DNA of 64,000 nt from Pseudomonadota bacterium (lineage in GTDB: Bacteria > Pseudomonadota > Gammaproteobacteria > Acidiferrobacterales > UBA6901). Each line of letters opens with the position of its first letter. The stretch's first letter is position 1. Shown here piece after piece: positions 3,841 through 64,000 of this stretch. A program made the translations under genes and the position numbers. Location: assembly GCA_021785515.1 (NCBI GenBank), contig JAJYEX010000003.1:1-64000 (forward strand). Direction: 5' to 3'. Under the pieces are notes generated by a model. That model saw nothing but the letters and a program-made list of their open reading frames with translations. It was not told where the DNA came from and ran no database searches.

Positions 3841-4350
3841 ATGTCCGATGCCAAGAAACTGGCGATCATAGCGACGAAGGGTACGCTCGACTGGGCCTAT
3901 CCCCCGTTCATCCTGGCCTCTACAGCCGCCGCCCTCGGGTACGATGTGCAGGTGTTCTTCACGTTCTACGGGTTGCAGCTGCTGCGCAAGAAACTGGACC
4001 TCAAGGTCAGTCCTCTGGGCAATCCCGGCATGCCGATGAAGATGCCGTTCGGGCCGAAGTGGTTCAAGAACATCAACTGGAATATCCCGAACCTGGTGCA
4101 GTCGCTGGTTCCCGGGTATGAGTCCCTCGCCACGACCCTCATGAAGCAGACGGTCAAGAACAACGGTGTGGCGTCCATTCCCGATCTGCGCGAACTCTGT
4201 CGCGAAGCCGATGTCAAATTCATCGCGTGCCAGATGACCGTGGAACTGTTCGGGTTCGACCACAGCGATTTCATCGACGGTCTCGAGTTCGGTGGCGCGG
4301 CGACGTTTTTCGAGTTTGCAGGCGAGTCGGATGTCTGTCTGTTCATTTGA
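3841..4350 (+). CDS. dsrE2: DsrE2-family sulfurtransferase (sHdr-locus copy)
   Basis: DsrE2 proteins belong to the DsrE/DsrF-like superfamily and bind sulfane sulfur; here the partner would be TusA. The 169-residue product opens with LAIIATKGTLDWAYPP, continues with hydrophobic FILAST and VFFTFYGL segments, has a cysteine in FIACQMTVELFG and a second one four residues from the C-terminus (SDVCLFI). A close paralogue lies at 56712-57332, sharing long identical stretches (NPxMPMKMPFGPKWF, NNGVAS/NKGVAS) and both cysteines. The gene follows tusA by about 70 bases and is separated from hdrC1 by about 300 bases with a promoter, so it may end one transcription unit. Confidence 0.9.
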   Translation: MSDAKKLAIIATKGTLDWAYPPFILASTAAALGYDVQVFFTFYGLQLLRKKLDLKVSPLGNPGMPMKMPFGPKWFKNINWNIPNLVQSLVPGYESLATTLMKQTVKNNGVASIPDLRELCREADVKFIACQMTVELFGFDHSDFIDGLEFGGAATFFEFAGESDVCLFI

Positions 4351-17510: not shown

Positions 17511-17522
17511 AGAGACAAGACC

Positions 17523-18356: not shown

Positions 18357-19709
18357 CTATACCTTCAGGCCGTATTTCTTGATGAGGTCGTACATGGTGG
18401 GGCGGCTGATGCCGAGCAGATCAGCGGCCTGGGTGACTTTGCCGCCGGCGTGGCCGAGCGCGCGCACAATGGTCTGGCGTTCCACCTGCTCGCGCACGTC
18501 CCGCAGGTTGAACGTCGCGGGCGCTCCCTCCGGTGCGTCGAGTTCCAGGTCTTTGGCATCGATATGGGCTCCCTCCGCCATGATCGTGGCGCGCTTCACG
18601 CGGTTCTTAAGCTCCCGCACGTTTCCGGGCCAGTTGTGGCCCTCGAGTGCCGACAGCGCCTCGCGCGAGAAGCCGCGGAATGTCCGCCCCTGTTCGCGCG
18701 CAAAATGGTCGAGGAATGAGCGTGCCAGCAGCAAGGTATCGCCCGTGCGCTGGCGCAGTGCCGGAATCTGCACCCGGATCTCACTGATCCGGTAAAAAAG
18801 ATCTTCGCGGAAGGTGCCGGCCTGGATCTTGGACGGCAGGTCCTGGTGCGTGGCGCACACCACCCGCACGTCGACTGGAATCTCCTCGCGTCCGCCAACC
18901 CGCTCGAAGGTACGCTCCTGCAGAAAGCGCAGCAGCTTGGCCTGCAGCGCCATGGGCAGATCGCCAATTTCATCAAGAAACAGGGTGCCGCCATCGGCGT
19001 ATTCGATCTTGCCGCGGGTCTGCTTCCCGGCTCCGGTGAACGCGCCCTTCTCGTATCCGAAAAGTTCGCTCTCCAGCAGGTTTTCGGGGATGGCGGCGCA
19101 GTTGATGGCGACGAAGCGGTTCTCCGCGCGCGGGCTGCGGGTGTGGACGGACTGGGCGCAGAGCTCTTTGCCGGTGCCGCTCTCGCCGAGCAGCAAGATG
19201 GTGGCGTCCGACGGGGCGACCTTTTCGATGGTCTGGCAGACCTTAAGCATCTCGGCGCTGCATGCGATCACCCCGTCGATCGAGGATTCCTGCTGTTGCA
19301 GCAGCCGGCGGTTCTCGGTCTCGAGCTCGTGCATGCGGTAGGCGCGGTTGACGAGAAAGCCGAGCAGCTCGGCGTTGATCGGCTTGTTGAAAAAATCATA
19401 GGCGCCCATGCCGACTGCGCGCACCGCGTTCTCCCGGTCGTCATTTCCCGTGACAACGATGACCTTGGTGCGGGGGGCCACCTGCAGGATCTCCTCCAGC
19501 GTCGCGAATCCCTCGCTGCTGCCGTTGGGGTCGGGTGGCAGCCCCAAATCCAGGGTCACCACCGGTGGCTCGTGGCGGCGGACCTGTTCGAGGGCGTGGG
19601 CGCGGTCGCCCATGGTAAGCACTTCGTAACCGTCAAAGCACCAGCGCAGCTGCTTCTGCAGTCCCGGATCATCTTCAACGACGAGAAGTTTGCGAACGGG
19701 TGCGGTCAT
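18357..19709 (-). CDS. prsR: PEP-CTERM-type sigma-54 response regulator PrsR
   Basis: Regulator of exosortase and exopolysaccharide genes, paired with PrsK. The 450-residue product has a receiver domain with phosphorylation site Asp54 (VTLDLGLPPD), an AAA+ domain with Walker A GESGTGKE at 174-181 and the sigma-54 contact loop GAFTGA at 221-226, and a Fis-type helix-turn-helix at the C-terminus (ADLLGISRPTMYDLIKKYGL). This is the complete layout of an active enhancer-binding protein. It follows prsK by nine bases. Its targets should carry -24/-12 promoters; one candidate is at 54849-54864. Confidence 0.95.
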   Translation of the reverse strand: MTAPVRKLLVVEDDPGLQKQLRWCFDGYEVLTMGDRAHALEQVRRHEPPVVTLDLGLPPDPNGSSEGFATLEEILQVAPRTKVIVVTGNDDRENAVRAVGMGAYDFFNKPINAELLGFLVNRAYRMHELETENRRLLQQQESSIDGVIACSAEMLKVCQTIEKVAPSDATILLLGESGTGKELCAQSVHTRSPRAENRFVAINCAAIPENLLESELFGYEKGAFTGAGKQTRGKIEYADGGTLFLDEIGDLPMALQAKLLRFLQERTFERVGGREEIPVDVRVVCATHQDLPSKIQAGTFREDLFYRISEIRVQIPALRQRTGDTLLLARSFLDHFAREQGRTFRGFSREALSALEGHNWPGNVRELKNRVKRATIMAEGAHIDAKDLELDAPEGAPATFNLRDVREQVERQTIVRALGHAGGKVTQAADLLGISRPTMYDLIKKYGLKV

Positions 19710-19718
19710 CCAGCGATA

Positions 19719-21848
19719 CTAATTGCTGGCTGTCCGGTATGCAATCGGCAGGTCGGAATGACTGGTCAGTGGCAGATGCAGGCGAAAGATGGTGCCGTGG
19801 CCCGGCCGGCTGAAGACGTCGATGTCGCCGCCGAGCGAGCGGATGAACTCGCGGGTTTCGTAGACCCCGATGCCCATGCCGGCCCCGCCCTTGGTGGTCT
19901 CAAACGGCCGGAACAGCCGCTCCTTGATGAAGGCTTCATCCATGCCGCAGCCGGTGTCTTCGACTTCGACAATGGCGTGGCCACGGCCGGAGCGCAAGCG
20001 GACAGTCACGCGTCCGTTGACTGGGGTCGCTTCCCGGGCGTTCTGCAGAATATGGCCGATCACGGCCGCCAGACGGTCATGGTTGGCGGAAACGGAAATT
20101 TTGTGCTCCTGGCACTCCAGGGTCGTCTCCGGATCGTGGATACCGTGGGCGTTGACCACATCGGTCAGAAGCTGCGGCAGGTCTACCGCTTCCGCGCGTT
20201 CTTCCGTGGCGTGGTCGCGACGCAGGTTCGCCAGCAGCCGGTTCATCTTGGCGATGGAGCTCTCCACCGTATGGATAGCATCTTCCATGAACTGGGGATT
20301 GTGTTTGTGTTTGGCGGCGTTCGATACCACCAAAGACAGCTGTGCGATGAGGTTCTTGACGTCATGCACGACAAATGCCGAGAGGCGGTTGAACGTCTCG
20401 AACTGGCGGGTTTCGGCCAGCGCGCGCGTGGCGTCGAGCTGCGCCAGGTGGCTCGCCGCCTGGCGACCGGCGGTCTTGAGCAGGTCGCAGTCCTCCCAGT
20501 TGAATTCACGCCGCAGCGGAGCAAGCGGAGAGCGCGCCAGCACGACAAATCCGAGCAGTTTCTCGTGCAGGATCAGCGGCACCACCAGCCATGCTCCCGA
20601 CATGCCATGCAACCATTCGGGCAGCGCGGGCGCCTCGATGCCGTGAAAGCGCCGCACCGATTTTTCGTGTTCATCCAGGTTGATGACCCATTCGCGCTGT
20701 TCGAGAAACCGCACGAGGTGTCCATCGCCCGGTTCGCTGGGCGGCACAGGATCACTCATGTTCCAGCGTGCCACGGGTTCAAAGCGTCCACTGTCGCGGC
20801 GCATCCACAGGACTCCTCCGGGGCTGTCGATGATCTGGGCAATGGCCTTGATCGCCCGCTCCCGCAGCTGGGTGGCGGGTTCGCCGGATGACAGGGTGCG
20901 AATGAAACGCAGCCATTCATCGCGGTAATCGTACTTGTATCCGAAGAAGTGTTTGCTGATGAACACACGCAGGGCCGCCCGCAGCTGCCCCGAAAACAGC
21001 AGGATGGCCAGTACCAGCACCGCGCCGAACAGAAAGATGGTCTGAAATACCAGACCCCAGCTGCCCCCATATACATCCACGTAGTAGCCGCCGGCACCCA
21101 TGGCCAACAGATAGATGCCGGCACCCACCAGTGCCGTGGTGTGAAAGACCACGCGCCGGGAAACATAGACATCGATCGCATCGCGATTGGGAGACCACTG
21201 CAGGTTGCGCGCCAGCGCCACGCCGATCACGGGCACCACCATGGCATGGATAAAGCCGCGCGCATCCCAGAGCGTGGAACTGACCCGCTGGAACAGCAGC
21301 GCGTCGGAGTAGAGATAGAAGTCGTAGGCAAACATGCCGCCCACGCCGACGCACAGGTACTTGATCGCGCGGCGCTGTTCGGGTGGTGTGTTGCGGTAGA
21401 GCTGTTCGACCAGCACCAGGCCGGCGACCGTCATGAGCAGATGTCCGGCCAGGACATCGTTGCCGGCAATGAATCCAAGCGCTGACCCGCCGGTGATGCG
21501 GTAGAGGTCGAGCAGCATGAGTGCAGCCGTAAAAGCCGCGGCCGATCCGAACACGATCATGAAGCGGCGGTTCGTGGTGGAATCGTCCGGAAAAACAGCG
21601 CGCAGCATCGCCAGCAGAAATGTAAACCACGCGAGCCCGCGCAGCAGCCCAAGCATCTGGGCAATGATCAGCAGGCCGCCGTAGGCGCCCTGATAGGCGA
21701 TGGCGGCCGCCCAGGCGACGGTGGACAGTGACGCCACCGCCAGCAGGGACTTGCGGAACTGCCCCTTGCGGCCGGTGAGCAGCAGCAGGCCGAGGCCGAG
21801 GAAGGCGACGGCCGTGGTCGAGTAGCTGATCACTTCTACGTTGATCAT
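19719..21848 (-). CDS. prsK: PEP-CTERM-type membrane sensor histidine kinase PrsK
   Basis: Sensor partner of PrsR. From the ATG at 21848 the product is 709 residues: a long run of hydrophobic segments over the first 280 residues forms the membrane sensor, then a GAF-like region, a dimerisation helix with phospho-acceptor in FVVHDVKNLIAQL, and an ATPase domain (NAREATPVNG, VEDTGCGMD, FETTKGGAGMGIGVYE). An earlier ATG at 21893 adds 15 residues of polar sequence before the first membrane helix and is less likely. The signal sensed is unknown. The kinase and regulator genes close the polysaccharide locus on the left. Confidence 0.93.
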   Translation of the reverse strand: MINVEVISYSTTAVAFLGLGLLLLTGRKGQFRKSLLAVASLSTVAWAAAIAYQGAYGGLLIIAQMLGLLRGLAWFTFLLAMLRAVFPDDSTTNRRFMIVFGSAAAFTAALMLLDLYRITGGSALGFIAGNDVLAGHLLMTVAGLVLVEQLYRNTPPEQRRAIKYLCVGVGGMFAYDFYLYSDALLFQRVSSTLWDARGFIHAMVVPVIGVALARNLQWSPNRDAIDVYVSRRVVFHTTALVGAGIYLLAMGAGGYYVDVYGGSWGLVFQTIFLFGAVLVLAILLFSGQLRAALRVFISKHFFGYKYDYRDEWLRFIRTLSSGEPATQLRERAIKAIAQIIDSPGGVLWMRRDSGRFEPVARWNMSDPVPPSEPGDGHLVRFLEQREWVINLDEHEKSVRRFHGIEAPALPEWLHGMSGAWLVVPLILHEKLLGFVVLARSPLAPLRREFNWEDCDLLKTAGRQAASHLAQLDATRALAETRQFETFNRLSAFVVHDVKNLIAQLSLVVSNAAKHKHNPQFMEDAIHTVESSIAKMNRLLANLRRDHATEERAEAVDLPQLLTDVVNAHGIHDPETTLECQEHKISVSANHDRLAAVIGHILQNAREATPVNGRVTVRLRSGRGHAIVEVEDTGCGMDEAFIKERLFRPFETTKGGAGMGIGVYETREFIRSLGGDIDVFSRPGHGTIFRLHLPLTSHSDLPIAYRTASN

Positions 21849-22833
21849 GGGCGCTTTCGTGCTCCCGTGTTGCCTGATCGCCGCCGCCGGCATGCGTGCC
21901 GCAGAGCGGTGCCGCTATGCGGCGCACCGGCGCAACCGGTTCGCCGTTCCGCTATCGGGTGTTCCCTGACGTTTCGTGCCGGGGTACGTCCTGTGGCCGG
22001 AAACCGCAGACCGCTAACATGCAGTGCCGTTTCGGCATCGTTCGGGCCGGCGTCCGATGCGCGCCGCATGCAAAGCTGGCCGGGGGATTGCGTGGTGCGA
22101 TCTTGGGCCCCGCAACTGTTCCGACCCCGTTGGCTCTGTGCTGCCCGGCAGCGTGGCCGTGGCGTACCCGAGTGGCCTGGAATAGACGTCAAGGGTTCAT
22201 ACCCTGTCCGCGGGCCCCCGCGCCGGCGACCCATCCCTTGTTTGCCATCCGGTCCCCGTTCCCCTAATGCGCCCTGCGTGCCCATTCTGGTCTCGCTGTT
22301 TTTGTTGTTCCGGCCTGTCCTTGCCGCCAGCTGATTTTTGAGACGGGAGAGGCAGGGTAGTGCTACACCCGCTTCCTTTCACATGAATAATACTAGCATC
22401 GGAATATTACACTAGGTTTAAGCGTCTCGGTCATCCGGCTGCATGGCGCGCATATCGGATTGAATGCGCGAAGCATATCGTAAACATTAATATATTATTA
22501 AATTGTTAAATTATACTTTTTGTCTGCTGACATCGCCGTCCCCAGGCACAGAACTCAATAAGCCCAGGCCTGCCTGAGATAGCTGCATGCCACGTTCGTG
22601 ACACTGTCGGGGTTCCCGCCCGGATTTGTCATGGGCAAGACCACTGCAGGCTTCTCAGGCAGTCCTCCGGTACCGCTGGTAATTGTTTCGCAGGCTAAAT
22701 TACCGCTGTCCTCGAGCGCACCCATCCATGGATACATCGGGCCCCGGTTCGGAATGGCTCCCGGAAAGGGATGCGGTGGTATACAGCCTGTCCGCCTGCC
22801 GCTTTCCAGGGCCGTCCGGTTGGATGGTGCCGC
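21849..22833. other. Long non-coding gap between prsK and prsT
   Basis: Nearly 1 kb with no gene I can support. It has a sharply AT-rich stretch near 22480-22520 that would suit a promoter for prsK-prsR on the minus strand, though no clean -35/-10 pair is obvious. A minus-strand frame at 22555-22737 ends neatly but matches nothing recognisable. Confidence 0.5.
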
Positions 22834-25221
22834 TCAGTGCAGCGAATCCAGTATCGCGCGTGCTTTCGCCGCCCTGTCGAATCGGGTTGCCGCGGCCGCT
22901 TTGGCGAGATGAATTCGGGCAGCGGCTACGTCACCTTTCTGGCGATAAGCCAGGCCCAGGTGGTACTGGAAGATTGGAATCTGTGGCTGTGCATCGACCG
23001 CCTTGGTCAGCAGAGTGATCGCCTGATCCGTGTTGCCGGACTTCAGGCTCACCCAGCCCGCGGTGTCGAGGAATGCCGGAACCGGGGATGAGGTCAGGTG
23101 TGCCGCAAGTGTTTGCGCTTCCTTCAGCCGGGCAGTACCGCCGCGTTTGACAAGCAGGACCGCCAGGTTGTTTGCGGCCACTGCGTCGTTCGGGTCCGCC
23201 TGCAGCGCGCTGCGGTAGGTGACGGTCGCCTTCTGGTCCTGATGTTCCGCCTGATAGTAACCTGCCAGCGCGAGCAGCAATTGCTGGTCTCCGGGAATTG
23301 CCTTCAGTCCCTGTTGGTACACCGCAAGGATGTCGCCATGGTCGCCGCGCAACCGGTCGAGTCGCGCAAGATTGACGTAAGGAACGTTCCATTTCGGGGC
23401 GATCGTTATGGCGCGTTGCAGTTCGTTCCCGGCATCAGTGTACTTCTTAAGGCGCATGTACACCTCACCCAGCAGCTCATGTGCAGGTGCGTCATTCGGG
23501 TCCGTGTGAATTTGCTGTTGCAGACGTGCCACAGCCCGCCCCGAAGCGCCCTGCGCCATGTAGGTATCAATCAGTGCGGTCAGCACCTGCGGTGCCCCAG
23601 GTGCCCGCTGAAGTGCGAGTTCGAATTGGGTTGCCGCCTGATCATATTGCTTTTGCGATCCGTACAGTTGTCCCAGACGGAAGGGGCCGGTGGGGTCCTT
23701 GGGAAAGGCCGTACTGAGCTGCCTCAGCGCCTGCGCAGCGCCGCCGATGTCATGGCGGGCGACCAGGACGGCCGCTTCCGCCTCGAGTGCGTTGGCGTCA
23801 TTCGGCGCGATGCTGAGTGCCCGATGAACTTCCTTGAGCGCAGCGCCGCTGTCGTTTTGCTGCATCAGAAACTGAGCAAACCGCAGCCTGGCATTGGCGT
23901 CGTTCGGATTGTCGCTCACAGCGCGCTGCAAATCCTGCCGCGCAAGGTCCGGGGCGTGATTCATCAGGTTCGCTTCGGCCAGCAAAGCAAGCACCTTGGC
24001 CGAGGTAGGCTGGTCTTTGAGAATGGAGCGGAACGCCGACGTTGCCGTCAGCGGGTCATTGTGCTGTAGCGCGTTCGTTCCCTCGAGCAGCAATGCCTCG
24101 TCATTCTGTGGGTTCTTTTTCAGGATCTTTTTAACCAGCTTCATTCCCTCATCGGTTCTGCCTTCCTGAAAAAGCAGACTGGCCAGACTGTCGCGCGCTG
24201 ACAACTTGTCCTGTTTCGAGTCATCGCGCGAAATGATCCGGCGGTATACGGCCTCTGCCTTGGCGGGGGCGCCGGTATGCTCGTAAAGTGCCGCAAGCGC
24301 AAACCGCGCGCGGTCCTTGTCCGGATAGGACCGGATGGTTTGCTGAAGTTCCGCTTCCGCTTGGGGTATGCCGCGGTTTATGGCAAGAAACTGCGCAAGC
24401 GTCACCTCCCGGCGCACGTCTTTCGGGTTGGCCTGGACCGCATCACGCAGCACCTGCTCTGCCTGATCGATCTGCTTGATATGCACCAGGAATGAGGCGT
24501 ACAAGACGCGCGGCTGCAGTCGGCTGGGTTCAAGCGCGATGATTTTCTGGAACTGTTTCCCGACTATGTCATAGTTCGCAGGATTCCTCGCGTAAAAGCT
24601 GATCAGCGTGCCGCGCAAACGAACATCGTTCGGGTTATGGGAGATTGCCGCCCGAAGCACCGCAATACCTTTGGCGGTATCGCCTTGGCGATTATAGATC
24701 GCAGCCAGAAGCGAAGCCGCGCGGTAGTTTGCCGGATCGACCGCAATGATGGAGTTGATTTCCTTGATCGCGCCCTTGGTGTTCCCCTGCTTGGCCATGA
24801 TCGCCGCCTTGAGCAGCTTCCCGTTGGTGCTGGCTGGGTGTTTAGCGAGAATCGAGTCGGCGATCTGGCTGGCTTTCGAAATGTTGCCGGACAGGAGGTA
24901 GAAGGTTCCGAGCCTCGTTTGCGCCGCCGGGTAGTCGGGCTGCAGTTGAACCGCCTCTTGATAGTAGCCGACCGCCTGACGAAGGTTGCCTCTTTTCTCC
25001 TCGATTTTTGCAAGAAAATAGCAGGCCTGCGCATTTTTCGGATTGATCTGTAGCACATTCCGCAGTTCGATTGCAGCCTTTGGCAGGTCCTGTTTGGCCA
25101 TGTAACCTTTCGCGCGTTTCAGATAGGCCGCCTCCCGGCTGGCGGCGCCGCCACAGGCACCAAGAAGGACAGCAACGAGGGCTATCATCAGCAGCGCACC
25201 AGCAGTTTCTTTTCTCTTCAC
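22834..25221 (-). CDS. prsT: TPR-repeat lipoprotein PrsT of the exosortase system
   Basis: PrsT accompanies PrsK/PrsR in PEP-CTERM/exosortase loci. The product of about 795 residues has a lipoprotein signal with lipobox LLGACGG, then some 20 tetratricopeptide repeats to the C-terminus (recurrent A-x-LAxLYxxxGxxxKA-type units). It is probably anchored in the outer or inner membrane facing the periplasm and acts as a scaffold. The GTG at 25221 has AGGAGG nine bases upstream and gives MKRKETAG, a normal lipoprotein start; the ATG at 25245 would place eight polar residues before it and has no ribosome site. Confidence 0.92.
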   Translation of the reverse strand: MKRKETAGALLMIALVAVLLGACGGAASREAAYLKRAKGYMAKQDLPKAAIELRNVLQINPKNAQACYFLAKIEEKRGNLRQAVGYYQEAVQLQPDYPAAQTRLGTFYLLSGNISKASQIADSILAKHPASTNGKLLKAAIMAKQGNTKGAIKEINSIIAVDPANYRAASLLAAIYNRQGDTAKGIAVLRAAISHNPNDVRLRGTLISFYARNPANYDIVGKQFQKIIALEPSRLQPRVLYASFLVHIKQIDQAEQVLRDAVQANPKDVRREVTLAQFLAINRGIPQAEAELQQTIRSYPDKDRARFALAALYEHTGAPAKAEAVYRRIISRDDSKQDKLSARDSLASLLFQEGRTDEGMKLVKKILKKNPQNDEALLLEGTNALQHNDPLTATSAFRSILKDQPTSAKVLALLAEANLMNHAPDLARQDLQRAVSDNPNDANARLRFAQFLMQQNDSGAALKEVHRALSIAPNDANALEAEAAVLVARHDIGGAAQALRQLSTAFPKDPTGPFRLGQLYGSQKQYDQAATQFELALQRAPGAPQVLTALIDTYMAQGASGRAVARLQQQIHTDPNDAPAHELLGEVYMRLKKYTDAGNELQRAITIAPKWNVPYVNLARLDRLRGDHGDILAVYQQGLKAIPGDQQLLLALAGYYQAEHQDQKATVTYRSALQADPNDAVAANNLAVLLVKRGGTARLKEAQTLAAHLTSSPVPAFLDTAGWVSLKSGNTDQAITLLTKAVDAQPQIPIFQYHLGLAYRQKGDVAAARIHLAKAAAATRFDRAAKARAILDSLH

Positions 25222-25407
25222 AGCGTCATGCCTCCTACAAACCATTACGTTCTTCTGAATTCATCTAAACACAGTCAAATGACTTTTAATTAAAAATGCG
25301 CCCTGTTGTGATTCCGGGTCATAGTAAAACACAAAGCCGGTTGCCACGGATAGGCCGTGCTCACGGACGTATCCGTACGTGTGGGTTAGCGACAGATTTC
25401 CGGGCAC

Positions 25408-27526: not shown

Positions 27527-29113
27527 TCAGTGCGGAACATAGCGGGGCAGGATCGGAGCGACTTCTTTGGCAAATGTGCGCAACGACCGGTCTGCTGACG
27601 CAATTGATCCGCCGGGCGGAATAAAGGTGACAAGGCGCACCAGAGCCCCGTCCGTACGGTGCCGGGTCAGACCGTCCCAGAACAGATACCATTTCACCGC
27701 ATATTCATTCGTGAGCAGTCGCCCCTGCTCCTGGAACCAGTAGTACACCAGTTCGTTTATGTTGCCCTTTTTGATGATTGCGCGGTTGACCCACAACGGC
27801 ATGCCATACATCGTGACTCCGGGAATCCGGACTTGCGCCAGCTTCTTGATTTCCCACCCGCCGCCTGGGATGCAAGTGCGCGGGGTATGAGCGGCATCGC
27901 CTGGCTTCTGAGTATTGTAGTAGGACACGTAAAAATTTACCGTACCTGCTCCGGGTGCGACATAGTCTGCGAGAATGTAGTCCGAGAGCTTGAGCTGGTT
28001 GAGAAAAACGTCTTGTATGCGATGGGTTTTGCCGACCCAAGGTCCGATCCTAAGCGGAAATTCGGAGAAGTTCAGCCGTTGCGGCACAATGTCCTGGTGC
28101 TGTCCGATCGTGATCGATGCGCCCGCTGTAGCTACCAGCATCACAAACAGCGGATACTGGAAACGGATCGCGGAACGCGGCCGGCTGCTCGCGTTGGCAG
28201 GGATCGATTCGCCGAAGTCCAGGCGGAATGTCTCCGACAGACCGTGCCCGGAAGAAGATCCGATGCGGGAAAGAATCGCCATTTCCCCGATTATCATCGC
28301 AATACAGATCATGAATACGAGCCAGCCTTCGAACATATGCCGAAATCCCTCGGCCTGTCTGATTCCCGCGTAATCTACCAGTACACCGATCACCCCTATC
28401 CGGACGCTGTTCATGATGACCGTTATCGGGATGCACGACAGGAAAACGACGACCTTCTTCCATAAGGATGCCCGGAAGAGATACGCGGCAATGAAGGAGA
28501 GGCTCATCAGAGGAAACAGATAGCGAAGGCCGCTGCACGCCCGTGCCACCTGAAGCTTGTAAGTGCCAAGATCGATGACGTTTCCAGATAGGTATACCGC
28601 GACACCCAGTTGGCGGATCACCCAGACGCCGAGCTGTGACGACAGGAGCTGCAACCGGGCCGACATGCCGGCGTATACAACCCCCGGGAGTGGGATCATG
28701 AAGAAAAGGAAGAACAACGCCACCCAGATCAGGCGAAATGCCTTCCAGCCCATTACGGACAGGGCGAGCCCCATCAGCACCACGACCATTCCGTACTGCA
28801 CTACCGGGAAAACCGTGGCCAGTGTCCCGGCAAGGTACAGCCCGAGCCCCAGGGCAACCACCACCAGTCCCCAAGGCGATCCCACGAACGGGATGCGCGC
28901 AAGCTCCCATCTGCGCTGCCAGATGTGGTACAGAGTAATGACTGGGATCAGATAGCCGTAGCTGTATGCCTTCCAGACATTCCAGTGATGGATCATGTCC
29001 TCCAGGCTGTGCCGGAAGGTCCAGAAGACGATGACCAGCGCCACGATAACTGGTGCCCAGAACAGCGGGGTGGTACGCCAGTAGGATGTAGAATTTTCAG
29101 TGTTGCCCGTCAT
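27527..29113 (-). CDS. xrtD: XrtD-type exosortase fused to an EpsI domain
   Basis: Exosortases are membrane transpeptidase-like enzymes that cut and anchor proteins bearing PEP-CTERM-like tails. The 528-residue product has about eight membrane segments and the catalytic set Cys193 (ARACSGLRYLFP), Arg238 (MNSVRIG) and His259 (FRHMFEGW). From about residue 305 an EpsI domain follows, with its TCIPGGGWEI motif. The NSVRIG and HMFEGW forms match the XrtD (VPLPA-CTERM) group better than XrtA, which has NGLRAY and HLIYGW. No sorting-tail substrate is encoded here. Confidence 0.88.
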   Translation of the reverse strand: MTGNTENSTSYWRTTPLFWAPVIVALVIVFWTFRHSLEDMIHHWNVWKAYSYGYLIPVITLYHIWQRRWELARIPFVGSPWGLVVVALGLGLYLAGTLATVFPVVQYGMVVVLMGLALSVMGWKAFRLIWVALFFLFFMIPLPGVVYAGMSARLQLLSSQLGVWVIRQLGVAVYLSGNVIDLGTYKLQVARACSGLRYLFPLMSLSFIAAYLFRASLWKKVVVFLSCIPITVIMNSVRIGVIGVLVDYAGIRQAEGFRHMFEGWLVFMICIAMIIGEMAILSRIGSSSGHGLSETFRLDFGESIPANASSRPRSAIRFQYPLFVMLVATAGASITIGQHQDIVPQRLNFSEFPLRIGPWVGKTHRIQDVFLNQLKLSDYILADYVAPGAGTVNFYVSYYNTQKPGDAAHTPRTCIPGGGWEIKKLAQVRIPGVTMYGMPLWVNRAIIKKGNINELVYYWFQEQGRLLTNEYAVKWYLFWDGLTRHRTDGALVRLVTFIPPGGSIASADRSLRTFAKEVAPILPRYVPH

Positions 29114-55306: not shown

Positions 55307-56362
55307 TTACGGGTGACTGCGAGGCGAAAATGGGGTGGCTAGAGGTTCACCAATAAAGATGCCCTGGCCAGGCATAGCCACGCTTTTCCAGTAGGCTTCG
55401 ATCAAGGTCTCGCCTTTCAGGTAGTAGCGCATTACGACACCAGGGCTCGGAAATTTGTCCAGAAAATTACACGGCTCCACTACGGTTCCGTAGCTACCTG
55501 TGGCGCCGGCCTCAAGCCAGGCGAGACTGCTCATCTGGGCGCTGTGGATCAGCACGCCACCGGTGGACGTCAGATGATCGGCAATTGCGCCTGGCAGGAA
55601 ATGGTTGCTGCGCAACGCTCGCACCCGCTTAATACCAGTGAAATAAAACAGCACGTCTTTCTTGCCGGTGATGTAGTTCGCCCGCACAATCCGAAGCCGG
55701 ATCTTCTTGCCCAGTTCGCTGACAATTTCCGGATACATCGCGGCGCGCACATTACGTGCCTGATCCGAGGTGCTCAGGAGATAGCCTGTGCCGCGCGGAA
55801 AGGTGCCGTCGGAGGCTACACCCCGATCGATGAGGCGCCGGACTGCCCGGAAGCTGGTTCCTGCAAGTGCCATGGTCGGACGGATCCCGAAGTCCGTATA
55901 GGGGGCATGGCTCGGGGAATCGAAATAGGGGTCATATTTGGTGGGCCGGCAGCCGCTCGCGCAATAGGCGCGATGGAAGCCCATGGCAAATGCGGTCGTG
56001 ATGGACATGCATCCCACCCGGTAGGGCGCGGCCCAGGTCAGCGCGTACGCCTGGACGTTGGGCGGTGTGCGGGCGTCGACCCGTGTCTTGATGGCGCGAA
56101 ATTGGGCAGGAGCCATCACCGCTGAGCCGGGCTTGAAGCGGATATGGATCATGTTGGCGTTCGGGATGTGGCGCATTGCCTGGTAGTACTCACCAATTCG
56201 CTCGCTGAGCGGGTCATCGTCGTTAACGATGACTGCGAGATCCTGTGGCCCGAGGCGCGGCGTCTGGCGGCTGGGCTGGGCCGCTTTAGCGATAAGTGGA
56301 GTTATGCTAACTAACTGTAAAACAATAATAATGCACCGAAGTGCTGGAATGTTTCGAATCAT
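55307..56362 (-). CDS. TIGR03790-family secreted protein
   Basis: Family of unknown function found with exosortase and other secretion loci. From the ATG at 56362 the product is 351 residues with a signal peptide (IPALRCIIIVLQLVSITPLIAKAAQ), then GPQDLAVIVNDDDPLSERIGEYYQAMRHIPNANMI, the usual opening of the family, several conserved cysteines (YRVGCMS, CASGCRPTKYD) and late STGGVLIHSAQMSSLAWLEAGATGSYGTVVEPCN. The open frame extends 100 residues further upstream, but that part is not family-like. It lies alone between the operon control region and the divergent dsrE2 copy. Confidence 0.78.
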   Translation of the reverse strand: MIRNIPALRCIIIVLQLVSITPLIAKAAQPSRQTPRLGPQDLAVIVNDDDPLSERIGEYYQAMRHIPNANMIHIRFKPGSAVMAPAQFRAIKTRVDARTPPNVQAYALTWAAPYRVGCMSITTAFAMGFHRAYCASGCRPTKYDPYFDSPSHAPYTDFGIRPTMALAGTSFRAVRRLIDRGVASDGTFPRGTGYLLSTSDQARNVRAAMYPEIVSELGKKIRLRIVRANYITGKKDVLFYFTGIKRVRALRSNHFLPGAIADHLTSTGGVLIHSAQMSSLAWLEAGATGSYGTVVEPCNFLDKFPSPGVVMRYYLKGETLIEAYWKSVAMPGQGIFIGEPLATPFSPRSHP

Positions 56363-56711
56363 CTGTTGTGTTGACTTTGAGCTTCTGTAGCGCCTAGTAT
56401 AGGTTGAGGGTTCGATAAAGATAATTAATCCGCGAATCCTCAGCAAAATCAGCCCAGTCAGGGCTGATTTGAGTAGCCCGACACAGTCTGTCCGGCGCGG
56501 CGCATGATGCCGGCCACCGTAAAGAATGACTACATAAAATACCGATCCATGTTGGGCGTAGTAGTTGAAAGCAGGGTTGTTCGTGCCGGATCTTTGGAAA
56601 GGCCAGGGTGCGCAGGTTGCGCGGCCGACCAGACACCGCTCGCGCAGAGGGGTGCAGGCAAGGATGGACACGAGCCATTGTCAACGCTGATGAAGAAGGA
56701 GAGGAGAAAAG

Positions 56712-57332
56712 ATGTCTACGACCGCAGAAAAGGTTTCGCAGCTCGATACCAAGCAGCTTGAGAAATTCATCGACCTGCGCCTCGAAGAGACGCTTCCCAA
56801 AAAGCTCGCGGAGCTTGAGGCCAACAAGACCCCGAGCATGGCGCTGATCGCGACCAAGGGTACGTTGGACTGGGCCTATCCTCCGTTCATTCTGGCGTCC
56901 ACGGGTGCGGCACTGGGCTGGGACGTCAAGGTATTTTTCACGTTTTATGGTCTGTTGCTCCTGAAAAAGGAGATCGGGGCAGAAGTGAGCCCCCTGGGCA
57001 ATCCGGCGATGCCCATGAAGATGCCCTTCGGGCCAAAGTGGTTCCAGAACATCCAGTGGCCGATGCCCAACCTGCTCATGGGCAATATCCCCGGATTCGA
57101 GAAGGTCGCAACCAGTCTCATGAAGAAAACCTTCAAGAACAAAGGTGTGGCTTCGGTCAAGGAACTGCGCGACCTGTGCATCGAAGCGGGCGTCGAAATG
57201 ATTGCCTGCCAGATGACGGTGGATGTGTTCGGTTTCAGCAAAGACGAATTCATCCCGGAAGTGAAGGACTATGTCGGCGCCGCGTCGTTCCTGCCGATTG
57301 CCTCTAAGTCGGATGTCTGCTTGTTCATCTGA
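56712..57332 (+). CDS. dsrE2: DsrE2-family sulfurtransferase, second copy, inside the polysaccharide locus
   Basis: The 206-residue product repeats the sHdr-locus DsrE2 almost throughout: ATKGTLDWAYPPFILAST, NPAMPMKMPFGPKWFQNI, CQMTV and the C-terminal SDVCLFI with both cysteines. It adds a charged, helical N-terminal extension of about 43 residues (DTKQLEKFIDLRLEETLPKKLAELEAN) that the copy at 3841-4350 lacks. AGGAGAGGAG precedes the ATG. It is the only plus-strand gene in the locus, with its own hairpin terminator, so it is expressed separately. A role in sulfane-sulfur handling is expected; why it sits here is unknown. Confidence 0.9.
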   Translation: MSTTAEKVSQLDTKQLEKFIDLRLEETLPKKLAELEANKTPSMALIATKGTLDWAYPPFILASTGAALGWDVKVFFTFYGLLLLKKEIGAEVSPLGNPAMPMKMPFGPKWFQNIQWPMPNLLMGNIPGFEKVATSLMKKTFKNKGVASVKELRDLCIEAGVEMIACQMTVDVFGFSKDEFIPEVKDYVGAASFLPIASKSDVCLFI

Positions 57333-57361: not shown

Positions 57362-57402
57362 CAGAACACCATGCGTCGTATCCGGCGCATGGTGTTCTGT
57401 TT
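57362..57402 (+). terminator. Hairpin terminator of the second dsrE2 gene
   Basis: A perfect 14-base stem, CAGAACACCATGCG (57362-57375) against CGCATGGTGTTCTG (57386-57399), with a ten-base loop, followed by TTTCCC. It begins about 30 bases past the dsrE2 stop. The stem is strong; the T-run is short. Confidence 0.75.
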
Positions 57403-57584: not shown

Positions 57585-58421
57585 CTAAGCGCTTTCTATC
57601 GCCGGACTGCGGAAAAGACCCCCTTTACGCTTCTCATTCGCCACATCTTCCACCATTACCGCCGTGATACGCTTGGCCTGTTCGGCGTAGCCGAACACGA
57701 GCGCCGTGTCGCACAGCACATTGATAAGTCGCGGTACACCGCCGGTATTGCGAAACACAGTCTCGCTGGCTGCGCTGTCGAACAGTTCCGGATCGCCACC
57801 GGCTGTCACAAGGCGGTGACGGATGTAGTTGCGCGTTTCTTCGGCATTCAGCGGCTCGAGGTGGTAGTCAACCGAAATGCGCTGGGCAAACTGCTCTAGG
57901 TCGGGCCTGCGCAGCATGTCACGCAGGCCAGCCTGCCCCACCAGAAAGACCTGCAGTACCTGATCCTTGTCGGCGTTTACGTTGGACAACATCCGCAGTT
58001 CCTCAAGCGTATCGGCCTCCATATTCTGAGCCTCGTCGATGATGAGAACCGTGCGACGATTGCGGGCATATTCCTGAATGAGAAAATCGATAAATGTTTG
58101 ATACAAGGACACCTTGTCCCTGCCCGCATACTCAAGGTTGAAGGCCATCAGCACCCACTGCAGCAGTTCGCCGCCGGACCGGTGGGTGTTCGAAATTAGC
58201 CCCACTGTTACCTCACGGCCGAGCTGGTTCAGCAGCTGGCGAATCAGCGTGGTCTTTCCGGTCCCTATCTCCCCGGTAATGACGCTGAAGCCCGCCTGGT
58301 TCATGAGGCTGTACTCCAGCAACGCCAGCGCCATGCCGTGTTTGGGGCTGGGATAGAGAAAGCTCGGATCGGGCAGAAGCGAGAACGGCTTTTCCCGGAA
58401 CCCGTAGAATTTCTCGTACAT
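57585..58421 (-). CDS. Exosortase-system AAA ATPase, ExeA-like
   Basis: The 278-residue product matches the ATPase found beside the chain-length and kinase genes in exosortase loci. It has MYEKFYGFREKPFSLLPDPSFLY, Walker A GEIGTGKTT (50-58), Walker B VLIIDEAQN and LRMLSNVNADKDQVLQVFLVGQ with sensor residues, as in GspA/ExeA proteins. It is probably a cytoplasmic motor or regulator of export. It precedes the dsrE2 copy convergently with about 250 bases between. Confidence 0.9.
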   Translation of the reverse strand: MYEKFYGFREKPFSLLPDPSFLYPSPKHGMALALLEYSLMNQAGFSVITGEIGTGKTTLIRQLLNQLGREVTVGLISNTHRSGGELLQWVLMAFNLEYAGRDKVSLYQTFIDFLIQEYARNRRTVLIIDEAQNMEADTLEELRMLSNVNADKDQVLQVFLVGQAGLRDMLRRPDLEQFAQRISVDYHLEPLNAEETRNYIRHRLVTAGGDPELFDSAASETVFRNTGGVPRLINVLCDTALVFGYAEQAKRITAVMVEDVANEKRKGGLFRSPAIESA

Positions 58422-58652
58422 ATTCGCAATGCCTCTAGGCAGTCCAGTTTGACCTGCACGGCCAAACCCCTGCGGAATGCTTCTGTGCCGGCCTTTTTCC
58501 TAAAACCCAGGGAGTCCCGCGCAGCCGGTCGGACAAACTGCGCGTCTGCGGGTGCTGATCAAAGTTCTTGCGCACCATTTTCCTGTCACCGGCCCAGCCG
58601 GCCGACTCGAGCCCAGCCTGTGCTGCGGAGCCGTCACGCTAATTCGACCCAG

Positions 58653-59573
58653 TCAGCCGTCTGTCCGTTCCGGTCTACGGCTGGTCCACGCCCGGAAGCG
58701 TTTGCCGATTGCTTCAAAAAATCCGCCAGCGCTTGCAGTGTCGGTGCTGCGGCTGGACTGGTTCTCTTTTGCGCGGATTTTCGTGCGCGACTTGTTTAAA
58801 ACAGTTCCGATAAGCTGGGTATTCTGTATCAGAAGCTCAGTGGTGTGCTCTATTTCGTGTGTTGTGGCTCGGCCTTCTTCAACGACCAGCAGCGCCGCGT
58901 CCACGTAGGGAGAGAACGCGATGGCGTCGGCAGCAGAGAGCAGCGGAGGCAGGTCGAACAAAACGATGCGGGAGTTGTAGCGGGATTTCAGTTCTTCCAC
59001 CAGCCGCACCATTTTCGGTGAATTGAGCATCTCGGAAGACTGTTCCAGCGGCTTGCCGCCCGGAAGTATGACAAATGATCCTATACCCGCGGGATGCACC
59101 AGTAGCTGCGAAATCGGTACATCACCGGTTAGGTAGTCGCTCAAACCAAATTCCGGATTGATACCAAAATAGGTGTGGATGCTGGGGCTCCGCAGGTTGG
59201 CGTCGACCAGCAACACGGTGTAGTCGACCTCCCGTGCAAGGCTGATGGCCAGGTTAATGGCGGTCAGGGTTTTGCCTTCGCCGGCCACGGGGCTTATAAC
59301 TGCCAGCGTATTCCAGTGCTTCTCGCGCAGACGTTGCAGGACCTGGGTGCGGAGAATCTTGTAGGATTCCGCAAATTTTCCCGAGTCAAGCCCAGTAAGT
59401 ACACGCATCTCCCGCAAGAAATGGAGTGGGACTTCCTCCGTGCGGGTCTGGGTATAAACGATCCGGTCAGCAGCAGGTGCCGGATTGCCCGCGGTGTCGG
59501 ACATCACCAACGTTCCGCCGGCCTGGAGGCGTTCCGTCCGTGCTTTTTCAAGCGCCTGTTTGATGCGTTCCAT
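58653..59573 (-). CDS. CpsD/CapB-family tyrosine autokinase-like protein without a tyrosine tail
   Basis: BY-kinases control polymer length together with the Wzz-like chain-length protein. The 306-residue product has Walker A-like SPVAGEGKT (94-102), Walker A' VLLVDANLRSPS and Walker B VLFDLPPLL, and lies next to the chain-length gene. Its C-terminal 75 residues contain no tyrosine, so the usual autophosphorylated Tyr cluster is absent. It may be an ATPase without self-phosphorylation or phosphorylate elsewhere. A polar N-terminal linker (1-55) precedes the kinase part. Confidence 0.88.
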   Translation of the reverse strand: MERIKQALEKARTERLQAGGTLVMSDTAGNPAPAADRIVYTQTRTEEVPLHFLREMRVLTGLDSGKFAESYKILRTQVLQRLREKHWNTLAVISPVAGEGKTLTAINLAISLAREVDYTVLLVDANLRSPSIHTYFGINPEFGLSDYLTGDVPISQLLVHPAGIGSFVILPGGKPLEQSSEMLNSPKMVRLVEELKSRYNSRIVLFDLPPLLSAADAIAFSPYVDAALLVVEEGRATTHEIEHTTELLIQNTQLIGTVLNKSRTKIRAKENQSSRSTDTASAGGFFEAIGKRFRAWTSRRPERTDG

Positions 59574-59743
59574 AGTTAATCAGCCCCATGTTTCATATGT
59601 ATGGCGGAACACCGCGGGGTCTGTATCGAAGAAACGACAGCCAGATCAGTTCCAGACATCGCGGCCCCTCGTTTGTAGCGCAGGTCTCATGAAAGTGGAG
59701 TATAGGTTTCAGCAGATCTTATTGTTCTGCCCGCTACGGTGAC

Positions 59744-61510
59744 TCAGCTGTGCACAAACCCGGAGAGAACACGAACGCCCTTGAACCACAATACGTCCCA
59801 GGGAATCCACAGAATTTGGATAAGCACCACAGCGATGACCAAAACCGCAATACTGGAAACGACCGCCATGCGCCTCACTTTCTCGTGGTGCGCACGATCC
59901 ACACCGTTTTCGATGTAGGGGATCACGGACAATGGCGCGGCGCCGGTGACCGCCGACAGGCCGCGCGCACCGTAAACCGATTTGTCGGTGCTTTCGGCCA
60001 CAGCTGCATATCCAAGACCGCTGGCCAGCGACAAAATGATCCCAAGGGCCACAATAGCCAGACGGTTGGGCTTGATCGGTTTCTGTGGCAGGTCTGGTGG
60101 GTCGATCATCACAAGCCGTTCACCCTCCTGGGCCTTCTCCATCTGCTCACCGATTCCGGCATCCATCTGCTTGTTCTTCAACTTCATGAATTCCAGCTGG
60201 GAGGTCTCGTAATCGCGTCGAAGGTCACGATATTTGCGCTGAACTTCAGGTGTCGCCGAGAGATCCTCCTCGAAGTTGGTGATCTTGGCTCTCAGCTGGT
60301 CGCGCTGCTTGGTCACCGATGCAATGTTGGTCCTGACGCCCTGAAGCTGTGCGCTGAGCGTGATATATGCCGGGTTCTGGGGTTTCATTGCCGGAGCTGA
60401 AGACTGTTTGGCGGTATCTTTCTTTATCTCCGCCTGAAGCGCAGTCAATTCCATCTGTAGCCGTACCACATCTGGATACTTGGCCGAGTATTTCTGGCGC
60501 TCTGCGGCCAGAGTAGTGCGCAGTTGCGCTTCTTCCTTTACTAACGCGCTGGTGTCCGGAGCCCCGCCGACCTGCTTCTTGAGACTGGCAATTTCGCGTT
60601 TCAAGCGCACTACATCCGGGTAGTCAGGATAATACTTTGCCCTCGCCACGGCGTACTCAGTCTCAAGCATCTGCAGTCTGCTGGCGGGATCCATGACGGC
60701 CTGGCCGTCCGGTCCGGCAATAGGAAGGTATGGGTCGATTTGATCAAGCTGCCCCTGCAGGTAGGTTTTACGATCCTCAAGTGACTGCAATCGGTCATCC
60801 GCTTCAATGATCTGATCTTCGTTCCGATCCATGAGCTCCATATTCATCTGCTGCAGTCCGGGGAGGCTTGCAGCATGTTTTTCCTTGAATGTGGCTATCT
60901 TTGCTTCAATCTGATTGATGTGAGTTTGGAGTTTCTTGACCTGACCGGTAAGGAAGTCGTATGTGCCCGCTGCCTGCGCCGCGCGGGTTTTAAGGTTTTC
61001 ATTCAGATACAGCGTAGCCAGTTCGTTGTCCACCTTCTGCGCGATGCCTGGCTGGTCGCTGTCGTAGGACAGTTTAAAGGCGATAATCGCATCCTGCGGC
61101 TGGCCAGTCGATGGGTTGACCACCTTGGCGGTAATGGGCTTGAGCTTGATGTCGTGACGCATGAGCTTGATGAGCTCTTCCGTCGTGTCGCTGTTGCGCT
61201 TGCTCGGGTAGAGATTGAACTGCTTAATCATGCCAAGCAGGTTGGCGCGCGTCATGACTTCCTGGCTGACGACCTTGATGCGCTGCCAGGCGTAGGCGGT
61301 GATTGTCGAGCGGACGAGGGCTTTCGGGATTTCCTGCTCTTCGATAAGGATCGTTGCCGATGAGCGGTACACCGGGGGAATTACAAATGCGACGATTATA
61401 CTGATGATCACCAATACTGAACTGACCAGCAGTATTGCCTTGCGTCGCCGCCGCAGGGCGTCCAGGATATCGCCAAAACCCTTGGTTGGTTCTGTAGTTT
61501 CTTCGTTCAT
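59744..61510 (-). CDS. Polysaccharide chain-length determinant (Wzz/GNVR type)
   Basis: Inner-membrane co-polymerase setting chain length and forming the periplasmic bridge to the exporter. From the ATG at 61510 the product is 588 residues: first membrane helix at about 20-42 (AILLVSSVLVIISIIVAFVI), the Wzz-type YRSSATILIEEQEIP, a long coiled-coil rich periplasmic part with two LETEYAVARAKYYPDYPDVVRLKRE-like and QKYSAKYPDVVRLQMEL repeats, then the GNVR-like PDLPQKPIKPN and a second helix, and a further C-terminal hydrophobic pair. The open frame begins 51 codons earlier but that part is not protein-like. Confidence 0.9.
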   Translation of the reverse strand: MNEETTEPTKGFGDILDALRRRRKAILLVSSVLVIISIIVAFVIPPVYRSSATILIEEQEIPKALVRSTITAYAWQRIKVVSQEVMTRANLLGMIKQFNLYPSKRNSDTTEELIKLMRHDIKLKPITAKVVNPSTGQPQDAIIAFKLSYDSDQPGIAQKVDNELATLYLNENLKTRAAQAAGTYDFLTGQVKKLQTHINQIEAKIATFKEKHAASLPGLQQMNMELMDRNEDQIIEADDRLQSLEDRKTYLQGQLDQIDPYLPIAGPDGQAVMDPASRLQMLETEYAVARAKYYPDYPDVVRLKREIASLKKQVGGAPDTSALVKEEAQLRTTLAAERQKYSAKYPDVVRLQMELTALQAEIKKDTAKQSSAPAMKPQNPAYITLSAQLQGVRTNIASVTKQRDQLRAKITNFEEDLSATPEVQRKYRDLRRDYETSQLEFMKLKNKQMDAGIGEQMEKAQEGERLVMIDPPDLPQKPIKPNRLAIVALGIILSLASGLGYAAVAESTDKSVYGARGLSAVTGAAPLSVIPYIENGVDRAHHEKVRRMAVVSSIAVLVIAVVLIQILWIPWDVLWFKGVRVLSGFVHS

Positions 61511-62069
61511 GCTGCTAGCTCGTTCACGGTTGTCGGCACTGCCACGGTGTGGTGGCTTTGTATCGTGGGTTCGGTCAGGACAGATCCTCTCAGTCCGTTC
61601 ACCACGAATACCGGTTACCAATGCATTATAAATAATAGTGTTAAAGTTGTTGCGGTGCTCCAATACCGGGTGCCTAGGCTTTCTCGGATTCCACCGGCCT
61701 ACGCTAGAAAGCTCGGGGGGCTATCCTCCAAAATCCCGGCCGTAACGGTACTTGCATCACACTCCGCGTTTGCCCGCGGAGTTGGCCGCCGTTATGGTCC
61801 GTATCCCCAGCGGCTATTCTTTCGGGTTACCGGCGGGGACGGCTCGTAGTTTTAGTTTAATACCCAGCCACTTTGTACCCTATGCCAGAGCTTCTGGGCT
61901 GGCGGCCTTTTGCGACTGATCGCTATCGGAGCGAATCTGTCGCCGTAATACAGGCTTTTGAATGCGGCTAGCGGTGCCCGTCTAGACCTGTGTATATTCT
62001 ATCAACTCCGGGCGGATTTCTCGAAAAATCCTCAACTTTGTTCCGGGGTAACCCATAACCCACTGATTG
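61511..62069. other. Non-coding gap upstream of the chain-length gene
   Basis: No gene seen. It contains a perfect eight-pair hairpin ACTCCGCG-TTTGCC-CGCGGAGT at 61761-61782 without a T-run. It separates the outer-membrane genes from the chain-length, kinase and ATPase group, so a separate promoter is likely. Confidence 0.45.
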
Positions 62070-63350
62070 TTATCTCGAAAGAGTTAGATAGGGCCAGCTA
62101 TACTTCAGCGTCAGGTAAACAGAACTGGACTTGGCCGGTATCATATTATTCGATCCCGGGCCGCCCGAGTCATATTTCACCCATATGTACTGGTATTGCG
62201 CGCTTACCTTAAGGTTCCGTGTCCACTCCCATCGCAGTTCAGTCGAGGCACCGTAGTAGTCGCGATTTAGTTCAGTCACGCTGGTGCCTACTGCACGGAT
62301 ACGGTAGGCATTGACGGATGCCAGGCCAAGCAGGCGCGGTGAGATCTGCCAATTATCGCCGAGCGTGCTGGAATCAATCAGGACCTGGGTTCCGGCACCG
62401 CTGGGGGAGATGGATCTGCCAAAGGCCAGATTTACGGTGTTTCGTTCGAACTGCTTTGTCAGGGTCGCATTGTAGATCGTGCCGGAGTTCTTGCTGAATG
62501 CTGTCTCGGCATAACATTGCCCGAAATAGGCCAATATGAATGGATTGCACTGCCTCTCGGCGCTACGGGTGCCTTGTGCGCCAACAGACAGACTGCCCGT
62601 GAGCGTATTGGAAAACTGGTGGTTAAGACCAATCATGGCCGTGGACGTATTCGATTTGTCGTACTCCTGGGCAAACTGCAGTACCGGGACTTTGAAGTAC
62701 GAGTAGCCTACGGACCCGATTATCTGGTTACGCGGGGTGACTTGATCGGACAACTGCACATTGACCGCGTTCTGACTGTAATTGAACAGCCCAGCCGTCG
62801 CGGCTTTGAGGTAGCCGGCCCCATCGTACTGATAGCTGAGCTGGAGGTTCACGTTTGGGGTGACTATCCAGGTCCAGGTTGGAGAGAGGGTGCGTGTAAT
62901 ACGCTCTACCTGTGTGTGGACCAGTCCGACATCAGCCACATAACTTGTGCCCGTCAGGACTGACTCCTTGGCGTAAGTTCCGGTGAGGGCCCAGGTGCTA
63001 CGGAGAGTCTGGTAATTGGATTGCAGGTTCAAATACTGGTTGTTCGTATTGAGGTCGCTGTGTCCCCCGTAGCGGGTACTTTGCCATTGAGCAGTCCCGC
63101 TCAGATTCCATGCCTCCTGTTGTGCGCTGACGTCCACGCTCGGGCTCAGAATCGTCCCCGTGACGGCTGGCCCGGGAACCGGAGTCAGCAAAATATTGTC
63201 GTTGTAGAGTTCCTGGAGGCTGACGGCAGGGGTTATCGACCACTCGGTCGATCTCGCAGCAGGAGCCGCGACAAGTGCCGCCACAAACCCAAGTATTGGC
63301 AGCAGCGCCGGCGGGATCAACCGGTGCGGAGTCGGGTGCATTCTGGTCAT
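62070..63350 (-). CDS. TIGR03016-like outer-membrane beta-barrel protein of the exosortase system
   Basis: The 426-residue product has a signal peptide (ending near AAPAARSTE) and then alternating amphipathic strands to the C-terminus, ending YLTLKYSWPYLTLSR, a typical beta-barrel close. Repeated patterns such as LQLSYQYDGAGY, NAVNVQLSDQVTPRNQIIGSVGYSYF and NTVNLAFGRSISP fit the PEP-CTERM-associated outer-membrane family. Two cysteines (RQCNP, GQCYAE) may form a loop disulfide. It probably helps carry the polymer across the outer membrane, next to the Wza-like gene. Confidence 0.85.
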   Translation of the reverse strand: MTRMHPTPHRLIPPALLPILGFVAALVAAPAARSTEWSITPAVSLQELYNDNILLTPVPGPAVTGTILSPSVDVSAQQEAWNLSGTAQWQSTRYGGHSDLNTNNQYLNLQSNYQTLRSTWALTGTYAKESVLTGTSYVADVGLVHTQVERITRTLSPTWTWIVTPNVNLQLSYQYDGAGYLKAATAGLFNYSQNAVNVQLSDQVTPRNQIIGSVGYSYFKVPVLQFAQEYDKSNTSTAMIGLNHQFSNTLTGSLSVGAQGTRSAERQCNPFILAYFGQCYAETAFSKNSGTIYNATLTKQFERNTVNLAFGRSISPSGAGTQVLIDSSTLGDNWQISPRLLGLASVNAYRIRAVGTSVTELNRDYYGASTELRWEWTRNLKVSAQYQYIWVKYDSGGPGSNNMIPAKSSSVYLTLKYSWPYLTLSR

Positions 63351-63507: not shown

Positions 63508-64000
63508 CTACGGTACCACCACCACGTCGCCCGATTGCAGGACAATATTCTGTCCAAGATGTTCACCGTCTTCGACCTGACCGTACTTGAACGGAATGGC
63601 TGTTTCCGTTCCATTTACCCGGCGCAGAATCTTGATGCTGTTCTCCGAGGCGAACGGGGTCAGTCCTCCCGCCTCACTGAGCACTTGCATGACGTCCAGA
63701 TTGCGATCGGCAACGAATGCGCCGGGCTGCTTCACTTCGCCGAGCACAAACACCTTGTTCCCATTCTCTTGTTTGACCGCCACCGTTACCACCGGGTCAG
63801 GCATGTACTTCGCGAGCGCGGTGGCCACTTCCTGCTGGACATCCGGAATGGTCCTGCCGGCTGCGTGGATATCTCCCGTCAAAGGAAAGGACACGGTACC
63901 ATCAGGAAGCACCAGTACGTCCCCATCGAGATCCTTTTCCTTCCAGACAGAAATGGTGAGCACATCACCCGGCTGGATGAGGTAAGGCGACTGAAATTTT
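63508..64000 (-). CDS. Wza-like polysaccharide export protein, cut by the right edge
   Basis: Outer-membrane export pore component of the poly_export/SLBB family. The visible 164 residues read from the edge: SPYLIQPGDVLTISVWKEKD, DGTVSFPLTGDIHAAGRTI, VTVAVKQENGNKVFVLGEVKQPGAFVADRNLDVMQVLSEAGGLT (SLBB domain) and VLQSGDVVVVP at the end. The frame is open to 64000, so the start, signal peptide and lipobox lie outside. A GTG at 63963 is internal, not the start. Confidence 0.9.
   Translation of the reverse strand, partial: KFQSPYLIQPGDVLTISVWKEKDLDGDVLVLPDGTVSFPLTGDIHAAGRTIPDVQQEVATALAKYMPDPVVTVAVKQENGNKVFVLGEVKQPGAFVADRNLDVMQVLSEAGGLTPFASENSIKILRRVNGTETAIPFKYGQVEDGEHLGQNIVLQSGDVVVVP

Follow-up and report, generated by a model that had tools for sequence, protein, structure and literature searches.

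Results

A long-form DsrE2 gene at an exosortase-type polysaccharide locus

The 64,000-nucleotide stretch of DNA analysed here, hereafter the window, carries on its forward strand (56712..57332) a gene for a 206-residue long-form DsrE2, a predicted sulfane-sulfur carrier, which we designate dsrE2L. On one side lies a divergent, exosortase-associated TIGR03790 gene (55307..56362, reverse strand; 248.9 bits against a cut-off of 67), whose start was re-read as the ATG at 56362, and on the other a convergent gene for a PEP-CTERM/exosortase-associated ATPase (57585..58421, reverse strand), which at 309.7 bits falls just below the TIGR03015 cut-off of 324.5 bits. The block to which the ATPase belongs continues on the reverse strand with a tyrosine autokinase (58653..59573; TIGR03018, 184.8 bits), a chain-length determinant-like protein (59744..61663; assigned by synteny in block-bearing loci), a fast-evolving outer-membrane-type protein (62070..63350; no NCBIfam match at the threshold used) and a polysaccharide export protein (63508..63963; TIGR03027, 127.7 bits). 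The host locus also includes PrsT, PrsK and PrsR (18357-25245) and, on the reverse strand, an exosortase (27527-29113) that scores best as XrtD (TIGR04152, 537 bits) and not as XrtA. All of the annotated polysaccharide neighbours lie on the reverse strand, which bears out the placement of dsrE2L given in the first-pass annotation, between the TIGR03790 gene and the exosortase-type ATPase and opposite to both. That annotation also saw no evident role for a sulfane-sulfur carrier in the company of export genes, and this stands; we know of no description of DsrE2 as a part of PEP-CTERM/exosortase polysaccharide loci. Outside the window, a large surface protein without an NCBIfam match is encoded at L230 1901-3898 (contig C4 65300-67297); it has a C-terminal hydrophobic stretch and an arginine-rich tail, and both G002 and G017 conserve it as a neighbour of the block, together with FadL-like and TPR proteins.

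Profile searches with NCBIfam identify the product as a bona fide DsrE2, as had been claimed for this second dsrE2 of the window, with a score of 221.5 bits against NF047629 (sulfur carrier protein DsrE2; curated cut-off 210 bits), and Pfam PF13686 is matched at 158 bits (E 2.4e-46). An AlphaFold2 model generated from a 37-row alignment (mean pLDDT 81 and pTM 0.68, residues ~91-130 being the poorly modelled part) predicts a helix at residues 13-38 followed by the DsrE core. The modelled protein appears to adopt a globular DsrE-type fold and was matched by Foldseek with a probability of 1.00 to 3pnx, 2qs7, 3mc3 and 2hy5 (DsrE/DsrF-like fold), of which 3pnx is a putative sulfurtransferase DsrE and 2qs7 is SSO1126, cited as a DsrE2B (PMC4175335). 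Two transmembrane helices are described for DsrE2 of the A. vinosum type (PMC12998232), while members of the DsrE2A subgroup have two strictly conserved cysteines (PMC4175335) and are tied, genetically or in function, to Dsr or Hdr systems. Among relatives of dsrE2L, Cys166 is invariant in all 37 aligned sequences; Cys203 varies, being replaced by Thr in G002 and G003, by Ala in L034 and by Ser in G033.

Two DsrE2 lineages in one genome

The window holds a paralog of dsrE2L in its sHdr locus, located ~40 kb away, where the short-form gene dsrE2s (3841..4350, forward strand) directly follows tusA (3545-3772). dsrE2L had been described as a near copy of this gene; the two proteins are only 64-65% identical, and a tree of 114 DsrE2 sequences places them in separate clades, dsrE2s among short forms in a starred clade and dsrE2L among the long forms. 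Within the latter, the copies at polysaccharide loci form one clade together with the copy of G032 (SH-aLRT 84). The extra helical N-terminus to which attention had been drawn is retained by our analysis as a predicted helix, with an extension of ~37 residues relative to dsrE2s, but some 100 long DsrE2 proteins, the majority of them gamma- and betaproteobacterial, have it as well, and it is therefore no distinguishing mark of dsrE2L. After the sHdr genes, the window further encodes LipS1- and LipS2-type lipoyl synthases (11780-16594), both scoring below the NCBIfam cut-offs, and an open reading frame on the forward strand (16897-17526) whose C-terminal part matches the BrnT toxin (PF04365, 59.7 bits).

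The genomic context of other long DsrE2 genes is informative as to the role of the subfamily. They adjoin TusA at ~30 loci and a rhodanese, assigned by reading the sequence, at 13, while on Thiothrix and Haladaptatus plasmids they occur with TusA, a YeeE-type transporter, and MBL-fold or DoxX genes. Judged from these neighbours, the association with TusA, rhodanese and YeeE supports a role of the long forms in cytoplasmic sulfane-sulfur trafficking. At the loci of the dsrE2L clade itself, no tusA, rhodanese, hdr or dsr gene adjoins the DsrE2 gene; seven TusA homologs are encoded in the genome of the window. The finding that M. cuprina DsrE2B was unreactive with the sulfur compounds tested (PMC4175335) also cautions against over-confidence in assigning sulfur chemistry by family.

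Putative transcription signals and leader

A putative sigma-70-type promoter (TTGACT-N18-TAGTAT; 56371..56400, forward strand) lies directly upstream of the divergent TIGR03790 gene, the start of which is ~10 bp away. It has 9/12 consensus matches, a level expected by chance in this region; the block is conserved in G002 and G003, and promoter-like sites with TTGACT or TTGACC also precede the gene in other members of the clade and in the rhodanese-linked relatives. The strong ribosome-binding site noted previously is present as AAGGAGAGGAG (56696..56706, forward strand) and, as read from the sequence, is conserved in G002 and G003. Similarly, the hairpin reported behind the gene is real, with arms of 17 nt (57362-57378 and 57383-57399) that are 94% complementary and an isolated stem of -32 kcal/mol; followed by three T only, this element (57362..57399) is a probable terminator with a weak T tract between the convergent genes, and strong hairpins follow the stop codon in 8/9 clade loci checked. 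Despite the presence of PrsR and PrsK in the locus, the region upstream of dsrE2L contains no sigma-54 match, and across the window the motif TGGCACN5TTGCW occurs at chance frequency (37 matches against 34.5 expected), so that sigma-54 control was rejected. Together, the promoter-like site, the hairpin and the lack of a sigma-54 match suggest that dsrE2L is an independent transcription unit. Assessed for a shared operon or shared regulation with the exosortase machinery, dsrE2L was instead found on the opposite strand with a promoter-like site and a hairpin of its own.

We also considered the 5' leader as a structured RNA and rejected it, as its folding is no better than that of shuffled sequences (z -0.9) and no Rfam model matches it at the gathering level, the sole hit being a sub-threshold Ocean-VII. 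Leaders of 18 loci mostly gave z near 0, the lowest being -2.3 (L114). In three members of the rhodanese-linked group (L049, L051 and L056), the leader has segments UACGGGU and ACCCGUA that might base-pair, adjacent to a CCGU/ACGG hairpin that precedes the ribosome site, and in L052 substitutions in both segments seem to preserve this pairing; folding of the whole leader in the group is not above shuffles.

Conserved linkage to one ATPase ortholog group

To place the locus in an evolutionary context, the dsrE2L clade and the ATPase (57585-58421) were searched in 57 genomes of the order. Members of the clade were found in nine (G000, G002, G003, G012, G017, G021, G028, G032 and, as a 68-residue fragment at a contig end, G033), and ATPase orthologs of at least 70% identity in eight (G000, G002, G003, G012, G017, G021, G028 and G033). 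All eight of these orthologs have a member of the dsrE2L clade on the opposite strand at a distance of 0.25-5 kb, an order that is also seen on the partial contig L034. No DsrE2 was found near the other ATPase loci read (identity up to 68%, some in the same genomes), though in a few of these (L159, L165) the sequence stops shortly past the ATPase gene. G001 and G004, which belong to the same genus as the window, have neither the dsrE2L clade nor a close ATPase ortholog.

The genes around this pair vary between lineages. Between dsrE2L and the ATPase, G000 has no annotated gene, G003, L034, G021 and G028 have one for a sugar epimerase, and G033 has several genes. On the far flank, G000, G002 and G017 encode a surface protein together with FadL-like and TPR proteins, and G012 and G028 carry rnhB-lpxB. 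TIGR03790 adjoins dsrE2L in G000, G002, G003, G021 and G028 and is missing from G012, G017 and G032, which led us to discard it as a true partner; moreover, no DsrE2 match lies close to TIGR03790 in 36 other genomes of the class that bear this gene.

The comparison of gene order bears directly on the earlier suggestion that dsrE2L may have moved to this site recently. Had a dsrE2 copy landed by chance in the polysaccharide locus of this one strain, its orientation opposite to the neighbours would be accounted for, but the placement is shared by several genera and is thus not confined to one strain, the gene is only 64-65% identical to the sHdr copy, and it is under purifying selection. Recent chance insertion is refuted by the conserved placement, and we consider it exceedingly improbable. 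Nor is there a sign of recent transposition, with no notable repeats flanking dsrE2L and no tRNA in the window. Composition speaks neither for nor against a horizontal origin, the GC3 of dsrE2L being 0.76, with 0.68-0.86 for the sHdr genes and 0.59-0.72 for the polysaccharide genes.

Sequence constraint and divergence of the block

Selection on dsrE2L is strongly purifying, with omega of 0.03-0.05 within the genus and ~0.1 to G017, and of 0.02-0.05 in both the window's genus and the g9 genomes. Within the genus the protein is 93-94% identical to the window copy, compared with 40-88% for the block proteins. These values weigh against dsrE2L being a redundant and functionless paralog kept by linkage only, an idea that could appeal to the presence of another DsrE2 in the genome and to the lack of the clade in G001 and G004, and which we find hardly credible. 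In the block itself, the proteins at 57585-63350 are 40-88% identical to their counterparts in G002 and G003 (L113, L114, L173), with 83-97% for the sHdr proteins of G002; the polysaccharide block diverges much faster than the sHdr proteins or has been replaced.

Exchange of the block together with dsrE2L is possible. Its sHdr-locus DsrE2 sets G033, which carries another family code, outside the window's genus (85-86% identity vs 93-99%), whereas in the block genes it joins G002 and G003, and G000 becomes the outlier: for the ATPase, G033 is 90-92% and G000 86-88% identical to G002/G003, and for the autokinase 83-84% and 69%, respectively (the chain-length gene was left out of the nucleotide comparison for frame errors). 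The 68-residue dsrE2L fragment of G033 leans weakly with the block (97-99% vs 94%). Such a pattern would be expected if block and dsrE2L were exchanged horizontally as a unit, the recipient gaining an extra sulfur carrier, but the quartet signal of dsrE2L is just 6 vs 4 sites, the G033 contig could be mis-binned, and tRNA and notable flanking repeats are lacking, such that we judge dsrE2L to be unlikely to represent the cargo of an island of this kind.

Retention of dsrE2L without the block

One genome separates the two components. The dsrE2L gene of G032 is flanked by rml genes and rnhB-lpxB, like that of G012, but the polysaccharide block is absent at this site, and the best ATPase match in the rest of the genome reaches 63%, so that a close ortholog is lacking. 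The gene is intact (222.7 bits) and constrained (omega 0.04 vs G012 and G021); the strong downstream hairpin was not seen here. Because the joined arrangement is also found in two other genera, deletion of the block in G032 is the simpler reading, resting on one draft genome. Retention of an intact and constrained dsrE2L without the block suggests that its job is probably independent of this block.

Discussion

Taken together, we consider it probable that dsrE2L is an independently transcribed sulfane-sulfur carrier which has been a long-term passenger of one polysaccharide locus and is not a part of its export machinery. The protein, of the long form and soluble, would bind sulfane sulfur at Cys166 in the cytoplasm and may pass it between donors of the TusA or rhodanese type and the sHdr machinery or other acceptors. 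Its gene appears tied physically to a single ortholog group of exosortase-type loci (ATPase, autokinase, chain-length, outer-membrane and export genes) in putative Acidiferrobacter-like and Sulfuricaulis/Sulfurifustis-like genera, and has presumably been inherited and lost mostly together with the block, as a passenger with what may be its own promoter and terminator and no working part in export. Several points run against this reading: neutrality alone does not readily explain why the linkage persists while the gap varies between 0.25 and 5 kb, G032 is a single draft genome, no TusA or rhodanese gene adjoins the copies of this clade, and the promoter match taken by itself is at chance level.

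A rival reading of the conserved linkage is functional coupling, in which dsrE2L would signal or deliver sulfane sulfur and surface polymer would accordingly be made when the cell is on a sulfur or sulfide-mineral surface. Linkage of 8/8 to one ATPase ortholog group through gene turnover on both sides, the joint absence of the dsrE2L clade and the close ATPase from G001 and G004, and the proximity of the TIGR03790 start to the promoter-like site are all consistent with such a role. However, G032 has kept dsrE2L under constraint although it lacks the block, TIGR03790 is missing from three clade genomes and occurs in 36 others without a nearby DsrE2, and no paper in the literature searched mentions both 'DsrE' and 'exosortase'. 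A link between sulfur and polymer would fit the co-inheritance, yet the apparently separate transcription unit of dsrE2L, the lack of a sigma-54 match upstream and the retention in G032 make it the less likely reading, and we regard this coupling as rather unlikely; the same holds for a variant in which dsrE2L modifies a cysteine of the export or sorting machinery and the linkage reflects that job, to which we give similarly little credence. That dsrE2L is a dedicated link from intracellular sulfane sulfur to surface polymer or protein sorting, held by selection at one exosortase-type locus in mineral and sulfur oxidisers, seems decidedly doubtful. When At. ferrooxidans grew as a biofilm on pyrite, its cells had more of a DsrE protein and of Hdr subunits (PMC6450195); attachment can thus go with higher levels of proteins for sulfur oxidation, an observation that is silent on linkage to polymer genes.

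Either outcome has wider implications. If dsrE2L is a passenger only, the long DsrE2 carriers would constitute a distinct subfamily that also has a life beyond operons of the sHdr and Dsr type, and it would follow that a polysaccharide locus, even one that diverges fast, can carry a sulfur gene along stably. If it is functionally tied, dsrE2L would offer a handle on how sulfur oxidisers match their attachment polymer to sulfur supply, which matters for bioleaching.

Relative to known systems, dsrE2L resembles the NF047629 family (prototypes DsrE2A Alvin_2601 and DsrE2B Mcup_0682) in its score above the cut-off, its predicted DsrE fold and an invariant cysteine within an ACQMTV motif; it differs in its long N-terminal helix, in a second cysteine (Cys203) that varies among relatives, and in its position at a polysaccharide locus, not next to tusA or hdr. 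The rhd-tusA-dsrE2 and tusA-dsrE2 modules linked to hdr or dsr genes (PMC4175335) find their counterpart in the sHdr locus of the window, with its tusA, dsrE2s and hdr genes, whereas dsrE2L stands alone in a clade without upstream tusA or rhodanese. The long DsrE2 proteins of Thiothrix and haloarchaeal plasmids (L228, L229) align over 96-100% of the query at 41-60% identity, including most of the N-terminal region, but are embedded with TusA, YeeE-type transporters, and DoxX or MBL-fold genes. Finally, the host locus of dsrE2L has the same parts as PEP-CTERM/exosortase loci, namely PrsK, PrsR, PrsT, XrtD, TIGR03015, TIGR03018 and TIGR03027.
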